The notes under the pieces: model-generated
What the model was told of the DNA's origin: nothing
Database searches by the model: none
The model's input: only the letters and a program-made list of their open reading frames with translations
In this document: positions 27,089 to 54,729 of the stretch, piece by piece
How positions within the stretch are numbered: the stretch's first letter is position 1
Layout: every line of letters starts with the position of its first letter
Made by a program: the position numbers and the translations under genes
Assembly (NCBI RefSeq): GCF_018882325.1
Contig: NZ_JACVOQ010000005.1
Coordinates: 62,001 to 126,000 of the forward strand
Length of the DNA: 64,000 nucleotides
Reading direction: 5' to 3'
DNA from: Polynucleobacter sp. 78F-HAINBA
GTDB lineage: Bacteria; Pseudomonadota; Gammaproteobacteria; Burkholderiales; Burkholderiaceae

Positions 27089-28522
27089 TTACTCTAGCTT
27101 AGAGGCTGAGCGTTTAACTGGCTCACCATTGATAAATGCGACTGCCTGAGTAAGCATGAAATCATCTGCGCTACCGAGCTCGACAGGTTTTTTAGACTTG
27201 TCTTTTTCTTTCTCTTCAGGAGTCTTCTTGGCATTTTTTTCTTCAATGCGCTGAAGCTCCTCAAGGCGACGCTTTTCACGATCGGCAACCAGTTTTTCTT
27301 CTGATGATTGCTTGTTGCGCAAATGCTTCTCGCTATCAACTTCGCGGGTAATTAATACATCATCCGGATCGCCATCTTTATTTTGATCAACTGCGATATC
27401 CGGTTTGACGCCATAAGCTTGAATCGATTTACCACTCGGTGTGTAGTAATAAGCAGTAGTGATCTTCAGCGCAGAATCATTAGTCAGTGGGCGCACTGTT
27501 TGTACAGAGCCTTTACCAAAAGTAGTCTTACCAATGATGGTTGCGCGTTTGTAATCTTGTAATGCGCCAGCCACAATTTCAGAAGCGGAAGCGGAGTAGG
27601 CGTTTACCAAAACTACCATAGGTAATTTTTTATACATCGCTGGCACACCAGCTAAGGGATCACCAGGCTCACTGAGGCGATACATTGCAGGTGTTGCATT
27701 GAACACCTGCTTAGAGTCAGCTGTCTGACCCTTAGTGGAAACAATTACAGCATCTGCTGGCAAGAAAGCGGCGGCAACACCGACCGCACCTTGTAGCAAG
27801 CCACCACCATTGTTTCTGAGATCAAGAATGATGCCCTTCATTTTGGGATCTTGATTTGCCAGCTCGGTTAATTTTTTGGCTAGATCAGGAACAGTGCGCT
27901 CTTGAAAGCTAGTGACTCTTACCCAGGCAATATCGTTATCTAAAATTTTGGCTTTAACTGACTGCACTTTAATTTCAGCCCGGGTAATTGTTACTGGAAA
28001 GCTACGCTCTTCACTCTTACGGAAGACGGTCAAAGTAATTTTTGTGCCTGGCGTACCGCGCATGGTACGCACTGCTTTATCCAGCGACATCCCGCGAACA
28101 GGTTTGTCATCTAAGCGGGTAATCAGATCGCCAGCCTGTAAGCCAGCTCGCGCTGCGGGACTATCTTCAATTGGATTGAGTACTTTAACAACGCCATCTT
28201 CTGAAGTGATTTCAATTCCAAGACCAGCAAACTTGCCACTGGTTTGTTCTTGCATTTCAGAGAAATCTTTTTTATCAAGATAGGTAGAGTGCGGGTCAAG
28301 ACTGCTCACCATCCCTTTGACAGCATCGGTCAGTAACTGTTTATCTTCAATCGGCTCAACATACTCACGTTTGATTTGAGCAAAGACATTCGATAATGTG
28401 CGCAGCTCATCCAAAGGTAGCGTCGCGCCTTGTTGGGCGGTGGCTGATAGTTGAATAGTGGCTGCAACCCCGGCGATGAGGCCGACAGAGACTAGGGCAA
28501 AGTTCTTGAAAAATACGCGCAT
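27089..28522 (-). CDS. ctpA: C-terminal processing peptidase (S41 family)
   Basis: 477 residues: signal peptide (about 1-30), a PDZ domain (about 85-170, GLGIEI then AGDLITRLD), and the S41 catalytic domain with Ser in NAYSASASEIV and Lys in GKTTFGKGSVQT. The last 90 residues are rich in Glu and Lys and look like a coiled, extended tail. It is a periplasmic protease that trims C-termini of envelope proteins. It lies 14 bases downstream of gpmA on the same strand, with AGAAG as a possible ribosome binding site. Confidence 0.94.
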   Translation of the reverse strand: MRVFFKNFALVSVGLIAGVAATIQLSATAQQGATLPLDELRTLSNVFAQIKREYVEPIEDKQLLTDAVKGMVSSLDPHSTYLDKKDFSEMQEQTSGKFAGLGIEITSEDGVVKVLNPIEDSPAARAGLQAGDLITRLDDKPVRGMSLDKAVRTMRGTPGTKITLTVFRKSEERSFPVTITRAEIKVQSVKAKILDNDIAWVRVTSFQERTVPDLAKKLTELANQDPKMKGIILDLRNNGGGLLQGAVGVAAAFLPADAVIVSTKGQTADSKQVFNATPAMYRLSEPGDPLAGVPAMYKKLPMVVLVNAYSASASEIVAGALQDYKRATIIGKTTFGKGSVQTVRPLTNDSALKITTAYYYTPSGKSIQAYGVKPDIAVDQNKDGDPDDVLITREVDSEKHLRNKQSSEEKLVADREKRRLEELQRIEEKNAKKTPEEKEKDKSKKPVELGSADDFMLTQAVAFINGEPVKRSASKLE

Positions 28523-51486: not shown

Positions 51487-52362
51487 TCAATCTGAAGAAA
51501 TCAAATTGTAAGCGGGATTTTTATTTAGCCCCCGAACAATTCGACCTATCCATCCTTTTGGAAGATTTTGCAGAAGAATTTCCAGATTCGCAGTGTCCGT
51601 CTTAGGGTCTAAGGCGGCAAAAACGCTACTTCCAGAGCCGGACATGCAAGGCGCCGAGTTTGGCACTGCCTTGTAAATCCAATCTAATGCTTGCTTCACT
51701 TCAGGACATTTCTGCACCGCTACTGCCTGACAATCATTTGACTGATATGACCTTGGCGATGCAAGAAAGCGATCTATTGTAATCGGAGCGTGATCTCGGG
51801 TCAATTGAGGGTCTTGAAAAATCTGAGCAGTGGCAATCCCCTGATTTGGGAAGATCACCACAAAGTCTTGGGTTTCCAGGGAAATTGGGTGTAATTTCTC
51901 TCCAACCCCCTCAACAAAGGCATTTTGGCCAAAGATGAAAAATGGCACGTCGGCACCGAGTTTTAGGCCAAGCTGGCAGAGGGTGGTGATATCGAGACGC
52001 AGATCCCAAAGCGCATTAAGGCCGATGAGGGTGGATGCGGCATCTGAGGATCCGCCCCCGAGGCCAGCACCCATCGGAATGTTTTTCTCAAGGCTAATTT
52101 CGACCCCTCGATCAATCTTGCAGTGATCTTTGAGAAGTTGGGCTGCGCGAACGACCAAGTCTTGCTCAGATGGGACTCCAGGAATGGGATTGATGCGGCG
52201 AATCTCGTTTTCCGAGATGAGCTTTAGGGTGAGGACGTCATACCAGTCAATCAACTGAAAAACAGATTGCAATAGATGGTAGCCATCATTGCGGCGCCCA
52301 ACAATATGTAGAAAAAGATTGAGCTTTGCGGGGCAACGAAGTTCTATCGCATTACTCATCAT
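51487..52362 (-). CDS. ispE: 4-diphosphocytidyl-2-C-methyl-D-erythritol kinase
   Basis: 291-residue GHMP kinase with CPAKLNLFLHIVGRRNDGYH and the ATP loop PMGAGLGGGSSDAAS. It phosphorylates an intermediate of the non-mevalonate isoprenoid pathway. Seven bases after lolB and five before the tRNA, so probably one transcript. Confidence 0.95.
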   Translation of the reverse strand: MMSNAIELRCPAKLNLFLHIVGRRNDGYHLLQSVFQLIDWYDVLTLKLISENEIRRINPIPGVPSEQDLVVRAAQLLKDHCKIDRGVEISLEKNIPMGAGLGGGSSDAASTLIGLNALWDLRLDITTLCQLGLKLGADVPFFIFGQNAFVEGVGEKLHPISLETQDFVVIFPNQGIATAQIFQDPQLTRDHAPITIDRFLASPRSYQSNDCQAVAVQKCPEVKQALDWIYKAVPNSAPCMSGSGSSVFAALDPKTDTANLEILLQNLPKGWIGRIVRGLNKNPAYNLISSD

Positions 52363-52369
52363 TCACGCA

Positions 52370-53857
52370 TCACTCATTCGGAGTATCAAATACTAAGCGG
52401 ATATCAATCGACCCGATATTGGAGCTACGAGTCATCGTCAGTTTTTCTAACTGCTGAGAATTATTCCAGTTGTAATTTAAGGTCCAGCCATCCTGTGTAA
52501 TTTTGCTGACTTGACCTTTTGCATTTCGCTCCACGCTTGCATTGCTACCAGGGCGAGTTTGTCCACGCAACCAGTCAGATAAACCGCGGGCTGGTAGTGG
52601 AAGTCCCAATGCATTTTGAATCAGGGTGTCGGCATCAATTGCGGTTGTTAATTGACCGTCACGTTCAAGAATTGCTTCACAGGGTTTAATCGTAATCTTG
52701 GCAATTGATCCGCCAACAGGATTGCGAATTTCTAATACATCAGTCAGCGCATCTTGAGTCAAAGTAAATCCACCTGAGCCACCTTGATTTTTACTCTCGG
52801 TAAGTCCTATGACCTTCACCGAGAAACGCCCGTCCCATGAGCCTTTGAGGGCGGCATCCGCAACAGACCAATCTGGCTTTAAGCGCTTCAAAGTTTCTTT
52901 GAGAGTGGGATTGTTGGCATCTAATTGCTGGCCTTTGCGCCACATATCTTCGGCTTCGATTGGGCGATTCATGACCCACAAGACTTCGCCTATATGTGCA
53001 GCAATGTCTGCCTCGGGCTTCATGTTAAATGCTTGTTGCAGTTGTTCAAGTGCTAACGCATTTTTACCCATGCGAAAGTTCACCCAACCAAGACTATCCA
53101 AAATAAAACCATCTTTAGGGGAGAGTTGATGCGCTTTGCTAATGAGCTTAAATGCTTCTGGTAATTTCTGGTTACGATCGGCCAGCGAGTAACCAAGTGC
53201 GTTAAGACTGTTAACATCATTTGGATTCTTGCGCAAGATATCGCGCAGAGTTTTCTCCATAACTTCGATTTGTCCTGACTTTTCAGCGGACATGGCGTAG
53301 GTATAGAGTAGCCCCGGATCTTTTGGTTCTGGTTTTACTGCTGAAACGATTTCATAAAAAGCCCTTAAGGCTTCTGACTCATCAGTAGCCTTGGCTAGTA
53401 GTGCCTGAATCTGTAACAAAGTAATTTCACGTTGGGCTGGTGTCTGCTGATTCAATAGGGAGATGGCAGGCTTGACTGCATCGGACCAGCGTTGATTCAG
53501 AATCAAGAGGGTGACCAGTACTTCTTTGGGCTTAGTTTGTTTTGGTCCCGCCAAGCTATCCCAAGTTTGTGCAGCTTGAAGTGCTTGGTTGGGCGCGCCT
53601 GCTGTAATAGCAATCTCCATAGCTCTTTGTGCCAAGCGAGGGTCATCTAGCTGTCGAGCAAGCTCTAGATAGGTGTTATAGGCCAGGCCAGCTTCACCGC
53701 GTTGCAGGGCGATTTCTGAGGCTAAGACCTCGAATACGGCTTGACCGTTATCCAGGCTGCTAGTTTTGGCGCCGGCATGATTGGAGGAAAGACTTAATCC
53801 AAGTCCAGCTACGAGCAATAAGGCCCCTAAAGAAGGCTTTAATGAAAATTTGGTCAT
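52370..53857 (-). CDS. TPR protein fused to a LolB-like domain, lacking a lipobox
   Basis: 495 residues from the ATG at 53857 (a GTG at 53863 is the alternative). Order: signal peptide (about 1-30), tetratricopeptide-type repeats (about 35-320, e.g. NALGYSLADRNQKLPEA), then a LolB domain from about residue 335 with GSWDGRFSV, LEIRNPVGGSIAKI, DADTLIQNALGLPLPARGLSDWLRG and QDGWTLNYNW. LolB inserts lipoproteins into the outer membrane and is itself a lipoprotein. Here the signal peptide ends SLSSNHAGAKT with no Cys, so the protein appears unlipidated. Many relatives encode the TPR protein and LolB separately at this locus. Confidence 0.85.
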   Translation of the reverse strand: MTKFSLKPSLGALLLVAGLGLSLSSNHAGAKTSSLDNGQAVFEVLASEIALQRGEAGLAYNTYLELARQLDDPRLAQRAMEIAITAGAPNQALQAAQTWDSLAGPKQTKPKEVLVTLLILNQRWSDAVKPAISLLNQQTPAQREITLLQIQALLAKATDESEALRAFYEIVSAVKPEPKDPGLLYTYAMSAEKSGQIEVMEKTLRDILRKNPNDVNSLNALGYSLADRNQKLPEAFKLISKAHQLSPKDGFILDSLGWVNFRMGKNALALEQLQQAFNMKPEADIAAHIGEVLWVMNRPIEAEDMWRKGQQLDANNPTLKETLKRLKPDWSVADAALKGSWDGRFSVKVIGLTESKNQGGSGGFTLTQDALTDVLEIRNPVGGSIAKITIKPCEAILERDGQLTTAIDADTLIQNALGLPLPARGLSDWLRGQTRPGSNASVERNAKGQVSKITQDGWTLNYNWNNSQQLEKLTMTRSSNIGSIDIRLVFDTPNE

Positions 53858-53892: not shown

Positions 53893-54729
53893 ATGCCAGA
53901 ACTTCCAGAAGTCGAAGTTACCCGATTGGGTATTGCGCCCCATTTAGAGGGTCGCAGGGTAAGCGCGGTCAAAATTATTGATGGCCGCTTACGTTGGCCG
54001 GTACCGAGCAATTTAAATACGCTGCTTTCAGGTCAGAAAGTCTTGGGAATTGAGCGCCGAGGCAAATACCTCTTAATGGAGTTTGATGCCGGATATCTAT
54101 TGCTACACCTAGGAATGACGGGAACATTGAGAGTGTTGCCCAGCAGTGATCCACTGAAGACGCATGATCGAGTGACCTTTGAGTTTGGCAAGCTGAGTTT
54201 GCGTTTGCATGATCCCCGAAAGTTTGGCGCTGTTTTATGGCACTCAAAATCCAAGGGGCGGATTGAGAACTACGCGCTATTACAAAAACTCGGGGTCGAA
54301 CCTTTTTCATCCGAGTTTGAGGGTGAGCTTGGCGCAGATGTCTTGTATCAGTGCTCACGTAAGCGCAGTGTTGCCGTGAAGCAATTTCTATTGGCGGGCC
54401 AAGCTGTAGTGGGTGTAGGCAATATCTATTGCTCAGAAAGTTTATTTGAGGCGGGAATTCATCCGGCAAAGGCTGCTGGAAAATTAACGCGTCCGCAGTG
54501 CTCTCGACTGGCTAATGCAGTGAGGTCGATTTTGAAAAAAGCAATTGCTGCTGGCGGAAGTACCTTAAAAGACTTTGTGAATAGCGAAGGTGATCCAGGA
54601 CACTTCATGGTGCAAACCAAAGTCTACGATCGTAAGGATCAGCCTTGCAAGGTATGTAAGACGCCAATTAAGCAAATAGTCCAAGGTCAACGATCTACTT
54701 ATTTTTGCCCCCAATGTCAGAAGCGCTGA
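53893..54729 (+). CDS. mutM: Formamidopyrimidine-DNA glycosylase
   Basis: 278 residues. N-terminal PELPEVE places catalytic Pro2 and Glu3; a Lys in GRRVSAVKI-type context and the helix-two-turn-helix GVGNIYCSE follow; the C-terminal zinc finger has CKVC and CPQC. It removes 8-oxoguanine opposite C. The 3' end overlaps mutY by 16 bases, pairing the two enzymes of the oxidised-guanine repair system. Confidence 0.97.
   Translation: MPELPEVEVTRLGIAPHLEGRRVSAVKIIDGRLRWPVPSNLNTLLSGQKVLGIERRGKYLLMEFDAGYLLLHLGMTGTLRVLPSSDPLKTHDRVTFEFGKLSLRLHDPRKFGAVLWHSKSKGRIENYALLQKLGVEPFSSEFEGELGADVLYQCSRKRSVAVKQFLLAGQAVVGVGNIYCSESLFEAGIHPAKAAGKLTRPQCSRLANAVRSILKKAIAAGGSTLKDFVNSEGDPGHFMVQTKVYDRKDQPCKVCKTPIKQIVQGQRSTYFCPQCQKR

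Follow-up and report, generated by a model that had tools for sequence, protein, structure and literature searches.

Canonical LolB is itself a lipoprotein of the outer membrane, into which it inserts other lipoproteins. We suggest that the LolB of the freshwater bacterium Polynucleobacter arose by one in-frame fusion of an lbcA-like gene with lolB, and that the resulting protein is a periplasmic LolB without a lipid, joined to a shortened LbcA, which docks the CtpA protease. Comparison of sequences and models leads us to assign this reading a probability of roughly 0.65. The fused gene was found in the window, i.e. the whole stretch of 64,000 nucleotides that was analyzed. As judged from sequence, its LolB domain carries no lipoprotein signature, and the LbcA-like adaptor to which it is joined carries none either.

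LolB, LbcA, soluble LolB mutants and the shared lbcA-lolB operon are already known. In the available text of the matches listed by our literature search there is no report of a natural non-lipidated LolB or of a TPR-LolB fusion, and no proposal of a link between LbcA/CtpA and lipoprotein delivery. Most of a free-living genus appears to manage without the LolB anchor, which makes it a natural experiment to be compared with the anchor-keeping relatives. The fusion partner would also tie lipoprotein delivery to CtpA proteolysis, as is hinted by the shared operon.

Organization of the fused gene

The source of the window was placed in Polynucleobacter by its named relatives (17 loci, 12 of them titled Polynucleobacter and five Burkholderiaceae bacterium). 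Positions of the fused gene, of the parts of its protein and of the related genes are given in Table 1. Pfam recognizes LolB (PF03550) at residues 342-491 of the fusion with E 2.3e-24 and 86.6 bits (cut-off 23.7). TPR_14 and TPR_17 are above their cut-offs at residues 181-235, and the remaining TPR models are weaker. The AlphaFold2 model, with the mean pLDDT of 84.6, has 17 helices in the region 37-326 and the LolB strands and helices in the region 339-490. Hence, the joining of a LolB domain to TPRs, which the first-pass annotation had read from the DNA, is confirmed by both the profiles and the model. The usual lolB locus is kept as well, as that annotation had stated, with ispE directly 3' of the fused gene and tRNA-Gln and then prs beyond it. 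Roughly 25 kb separate ctpA from the fused gene in the few genomes of the genus that were compared by eye.

Table 1. Coordinates of the fused gene, the parts of its protein and the related genes in the window.
Feature	Position	Strand	Basis or remark
Fused LbcA-like TPR/LolB gene	52370..53857	-	495 aa from ATG + stop
Sec-type signal peptide, residues 1-30	53768..53857	-	Type I-like site A28-G29-A30; no Cys or lipobox; by pattern
Helix 37-52, putative counterpart of LbcA H1 (CtpA-docking)	53702..53749	-	Alignment to 8sxe/7rqf; contact positions across the 75 fused proteins
Helical TPR region, residues 53-326	52880..53701	-	Pfam, LbcA alignment, AlphaFold2 model, fold comparison
Junction, residues 327-338	52844..52879	-	In split relatives, site of a stop codon and of the start, signal peptide and lipobox of LolB
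LolB domain, residues 339-491	52385..52843	-	Pfam; model; Z 16.9-19.4 to solved LolBs
Codon of V381, E. coli LolB Leu68 counterpart, tip of the insertion loop	52715..52717	-	By alignment with 1iwm and with 3wjv, the L68E variant
ispE, next gene downstream, as is usual for lolB	51487..52362	-	TIGR00154, 249.3 bits
ctpA-like gene of an S41 protease, presumed to act with the TPR half	27089..28522	-	Sole Peptidase_S41 match in the genome
mutM, divergent upstream neighbour of the fused gene	53893..54729	+	Opposite strand to the fused gene

Distribution and origin of the fusion

A LolB match is found in 144 of the 151 sampled genomes of the genus and in all 117 with at least 90% completeness and at most 5% contamination; the seven without it are 66-85% complete. 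In 140 of the 144 matched genomes, LolB lies within an open frame of 455-546 aa. The four shorter frames (149, 306, 393 and 419 aa) run into contig ends, as was seen at the locus in G054 and G143 and follows from coordinate arithmetic in G100 and G140. We read 87 Polynucleobacter loci, 83 with the full gene and four cut by ends, and obtained 75 distinct fused proteins. In relatives the two genes adjoin and their frames often overlap, so a frameshift or an assembly error could be thought to have joined them. The long frame, present in 140/144 genomes, in many of them within one contig, and in 83 of the 87 loci read, rules this out, and we regard the artefact as practically refuted.

The family sample outside the genus comprised 398 genomes, of which 29 were re-examined, with 55 LolB loci read. 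An LbcA-like TPR frame precedes LolB directly in 18 of the 20 family loci that were fetched with more upstream sequence. A junction-spanning model was matched in 387 of the 399 genomes of the order sample; among the listed rows, seven, all of them Polynucleobacter, reach position 319 of the model, with E from 3e-166 to 3e-170. Then E drops to 5e-58, and the listed rows end at position 176 or before. No other listed row extends beyond position 176, and those past about 165, where the LolB part starts, read through stop codons. In the class sample, where 328 of the 369 genomes are matched, the only fusion among the listed rows is the window's own; both tables hold the best-scoring rows, and a divergent fusion further down could escape them. 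In the comparison of split and fused forms across Burkholderiales, proposed by the first-pass annotation, the listed fused rows all belong to Polynucleobacter, and in the relatives the two genes are separate neighbours and LolB is, as judged from its lipobox, lipidated.

In the tree of 46 rows, the 20 fused LolB domains form one clade with support 100/99 and a long stem of 1.31 changes per column; the tree is long-branched and leaves the sister group of this clade unsettled. Most simply read, the genes fused once, and the fusion first changed rapidly and later came under constraint.

Several observations were made along the way. Spread of the fusion by plasmids was considered and rejected, as 39 plasmid records match and none covers 80% of the query. 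In the family sample LolB lies within frames of up to 1130 aa in some high-GC genomes; in the one such locus that was read, LolB has its own lipobox. Near-complete Burkholderiaceae genomes without a LolB match also occur (G168, G178, G157 and G216). Two of them are small (1.1-1.2 Mb), and G168 has no match despite 2.0 Mb and 99% completeness. It seems that LolB was lost, or diverged beyond the model, in some Burkholderiaceae lineages. Two other relatives with 1.2 Mb (G177 and G207; loci L146 and L161) have LolB with a lipobox, but the stretch read there contains no TPR gene of the LbcA type.

Signal peptide and absence of the lipobox

Lipobox, signal peptide and cleavage were judged by sequence patterns. 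By these patterns the window protein does not have the type II signal peptide with N-terminal Cys that characterizes canonical LolB. The Sec-type signal peptide without a lipobox Cys, described by the first-pass annotation, agrees with this: residues 1-30 look like such a peptide and end with A-G-A, and the single Cys of the protein is residue 393.

That annotation named a start further upstream, giving a lipobox, as the finding that would overturn its reading. We looked for such a start and did not find it. The fourth codon 5' of the ATG is an in-frame stop, and the frame is open for the three codons between them. The GTG two codons upstream adds two residues only and no lipobox. Among the 83 full Polynucleobacter loci, three codons separate the in-frame stop from the start used in 80 and one codon in the other three. 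With the frame open for just three codons 5' of the ATG, no upstream start can supply a lipobox.

In the pattern scan of the 75 distinct fused proteins, the strict lipobox is found in none and the lax one in seven, and 47 have no Cys within the first 60 residues. The strict A-x-A is present in the scanned stretch of only 46/75. Of the split LolBs of the family, 54/55 have the lax lipobox and 33/55 the strict one, although this set is skewed, with 30 of the 55, the best scorers in the family sample, coming from one genus. Since the lax pattern catches nearly all of the split LolBs, its near-absence in the fused proteins is meaningful.

It is conceivable that some members of the genus lipidate the fusion by way of an atypical lipobox. 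The lax pattern is sensitive, and three of the seven proteins that carry it (L130, L131 and L141), which are alike, have LLLASAC after a charged stretch. From this motif, lipidation of these three proteins is plausible, and we count them against the loss of the anchor across the whole genus. Against it speak the absence of the strict lipobox from all 75 proteins, the 47 without an early Cys and the window protein, which has none before residue 393, and we hold this reading to be very improbable.

TPR half and docking of CtpA

Among PDB sequences, the TPR half is matched best by LbcA of P. aeruginosa (PA4667), with E 1.9e-44, and the next TPR protein follows at 2e-11. LbcA is also the first Foldseek match of the AlphaFold2 model, with E 2.3e-11. 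In the alignment, residues of the fusion from 39 on correspond to the N-terminus of LbcA and residues 142-326 to its C-terminal TPRs, and roughly 235 LbcA residues, as reckoned from the alignment, are missing between the two parts. Structure comparison gives Z of 18.4 but rmsd of 10.4, so the identity with LbcA rests on the sequence and Foldseek matches. These comparisons identify the TPR half not as a generic TPR protein but as a shortened version of LbcA, the CtpA adaptor. The first-pass annotation had described the TPRs but not this identity. In Pseudomonas, LbcA activates CtpA and is a TPR lipoprotein with 11 TPRs and 29 helices (PMC8764530); its gene in P. aeruginosa shares an operon with lolB and ipk (PMC6050968). 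With about 235 residues fewer and 17 helices instead of 29, the handling of substrates by the fusion may differ or be lost.

According to the cryo-EM structure, LbcA contacts CtpA through L53, Y54, L56, L57, V58, L61, A62 and V87, and function is lost when L57 or V87 is replaced by a basic residue (PMC11021448). Mapped through the PDB alignment, the counterparts in the fusion are V41, F42, V44, L45, A46, I49, A50 and L75. L45, corresponding to L57, is invariant in 75/75 fused proteins, and residue 75, corresponding to V87, is hydrophobic in 75/75. Some variation is seen in the helix, with T or S at position 46 in 8/75 and G or S at position 50 in 11/75. The CtpA-like protein of the window matches P. 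aeruginosa CtpA with E 3.4e-110 and has LPLDELRT at the contact stretch, where F49, A50 and L53 of the P. aeruginosa protein correspond to L, S and F. A CtpA match is present in 149 of the 151 genomes of the genus (G051 and G061 are weak or fragmentary) and in all 117 good ones. The conserved contact positions suggest that the fusion most likely docks CtpA via its N-terminal helix.

The N-termini of the split LbcA-like proteins were examined at the 20 fetched family loci. A match was obtained at 18 and the N-terminus was placed at 14, of which 12 have no strict lipobox. In one split relative (L147) the match lies before the hydrophobic core of the LbcA-like protein, and in another (L159, genome G184) the LbcA-like protein has a plausible lipobox, LAAC. 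Lipidation of LbcA may therefore vary within Burkholderiaceae. In six genomes of one family of the order (f18: G514, G560, G603, G677, G707 and G871) the LbcA-like frame is short (335-411 aa) and the match stops before LolB; thus, the adaptor may have shrunk more than once.

These N-termini also bear on the possibility that something other than a lipid keeps the fusion at the outer membrane, e.g. TPR binding to an outer-membrane or peptidoglycan protein, so that it behaves like the anchored LolB. TPR domains bind proteins, and LbcA promotes membrane retention of CtpA in P. aeruginosa (PMC6050968). Moreover, anchoring has been argued to prevent insertion into the wrong membrane, and pressure for an outer-membrane LolB is thus to be expected (PMC11784454). 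However, no binding partner is known, and with 12/14 of the placed split proteins lacking the strict lipobox an anchor via the LbcA half is not evident in the sample. We consider such tethering possible, though rather unlikely.

Fold and conservation of the LolB half

The LolB half of the model superimposes on the solved LolBs 8orn_B (Z 19.4, 2.9 Å over 164 residues), 8cm1 (Z 18.9, 2.3 Å over 158) and 1iwm_A (Z 17.9, 2.8 Å over 163). The aligned range of the model starts at residue 302-312, which suggests, as read from the aligned ranges, that the last TPR helices may replace the N-terminal segment of LolB itself.

The first-pass annotation proposed to check whether the hydrophobic insertion loop is kept, and it is. 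The alignment, which includes the L68E variant, places V381 at E. coli Leu68, and the position is hydrophobic in all 75 fused proteins (V in 33, M in 15, I in 12, L in 12 and F in 3). In the split LolBs it is L, F or I in 55/55. W429, the counterpart of Trp117, is present in 75/75 fused proteins. The Trp of the lipid-binding half, found in 6/6 split LolBs shown, is replaced by Leu366 in 75/75 fused proteins. We take this Trp to be Trp52 of E. coli LolB. The W52P variant of E. coli LolB is defective (PMC10368991).

Both halves of the fusion are under strong purifying selection. The dN/dS ratio is at most 0.07 in 12/12 pairs for the LolB half and 0.02-0.09 in 11/12 pairs for the TPR half, the remaining pair being saturated; with many dS values above 1 these ratios are rough. 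The fusion does not reach the NCBIfam lolB equivalog TIGR00548 (43.3 bits, cut-off 59.6), so annotation pipelines may report Polynucleobacter as lacking LolB.

LolB is matched once in the 99.99% complete genome. A second LolB, which according to the first-pass annotation would have spoken against its reading, was looked for and none was found in this genome, where a very divergent type, of the kind detected by structure alone in Bacteroidota, would escape the search. LolA is found once (TIGR00547, 166.2 bits, cut-off 112). One protein of the LolC/E family and Lnt are also present, so that the LolA and the transporter that the annotation proposed to look for are in place, as far as the LolC/E-family protein represents the latter.

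It could be supposed that the LolB half has no insertase activity, that LolA does both jobs and that the fused domain serves the adaptor, e.g. by holding lipoproteins for CtpA. A bifunctional LolA exists in Caulobacter (PMC11784454), and the long stem of the fused clade and the substitution of Leu366 for the Trp also speak for it. Against it speak the insertion-loop residue, hydrophobic throughout, other LolB positions that are invariant, and the purifying selection. In addition, LolA of this genome passes the ordinary lolA model. We therefore hold an inactive LolB half to be improbable.

Proposed mechanism

Returning to the preferred reading of a periplasmic, non-lipidated LolB on a shortened LbcA, we suggest the following sequence of events.

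In the ancestor of Polynucleobacter, the adjacent genes of the LbcA-like TPR adaptor and LolB would have fused in frame, once. The fusion would have removed the signal peptide of LolB itself, its lipobox and its linker.

The fusion product is presumably exported by Sec and most likely cleaved by signal peptidase I, which would result in periplasmic LolB without lipid.

LolA would then hand lipoproteins to the LolB domain, and the hydrophobic loop of the latter would insert them into the outer membrane. We propose this insertion by analogy with the activity of lipid-free LolB elsewhere. The lipid anchor is dispensable for E. coli LolB (Tsukahara 2009, as cited in PMC11885536 and PMC11784454), and LolB1 C17G of F. 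johnsoniae gives full complementation (PMC11885536). The feasibility of a soluble LolB receptor, put forward by the first-pass annotation, thus agrees with lipid-free LolB working in both E. coli and F. johnsoniae.

Finally, the N-terminal helix would dock CtpA, and one molecule would thereby join lipoprotein insertion and envelope proteolysis.

A further step can be imagined, in which the fusion acts as a lipoprotein triage factor, with the soluble LolB and the CtpA-docking arm choosing between insertion into the outer membrane and proteolysis. Three of the four cell-wall hydrolases degraded by LbcA-CtpA (PA1198, PA1199 and PA4404) are predicted outer-membrane lipoproteins (PMC6050968). The genome encodes two NlpC/P60 proteins, one with a lipobox (L198, LSGC) and one without it (L199). 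With lipoprotein hydrolases as substrates and one lipobox-bearing NlpC/P60 protein here, a single fusion molecule could decide whether such a protein is inserted or degraded. We offer this idea tentatively and judge it unlikely. If it were true, LbcA and LolB would be physical partners in the relatives as well, as separate proteins, and the fusion would have brought this to light.

Comparison with known systems

The C-terminal half of the fusion is similar to LolB (PF03550) of E. coli, X. campestris and V. cholerae in domain sequence, fold, the counterparts of Leu68 and Trp117 and the locus on the side of ispE. However, unlike canonical LolB, it has neither a signal peptide nor a lipidated Cys of its own, as judged by pattern, and is the C-terminal part of a larger protein. 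In Bacteroidota, LolB-like proteins have recently been described, and these carry the Cys for lipidation (PMC13103446, PMC11885536).

The N-terminal half resembles LbcA of P. aeruginosa (PA4667) in sequence, in the Foldseek match, in the predicted CtpA-docking helix, in the gene order with lolB and ispE and in the presence of CtpA in the genome. It is shorter, with about 295 residues (31-326) before the LolB domain, compared to roughly 560 of the mature LbcA, and its helix count is lower to the extent given above. LbcA is lipidated at Cys17 (PMC8764530), whereas the fusion has no lipobox and has the LolB domain added.

The bifunctional LolA of Caulobacter is likewise a natural departure from the scheme with the anchored LolB (PMC11784454). 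There LolB is absent and LolA does both jobs, whereas in Polynucleobacter the LolB domain is present, apparently unanchored and fused. Last but not least, NlpI-Prc of E. coli is likewise a pair of a TPR adaptor and a C-terminal processing protease, which controls envelope proteins (PMC6050968). NlpI is a lipoprotein and is described there as having no sequence similarity to LbcA, and the one S41 protease found in Polynucleobacter is CtpA-like.
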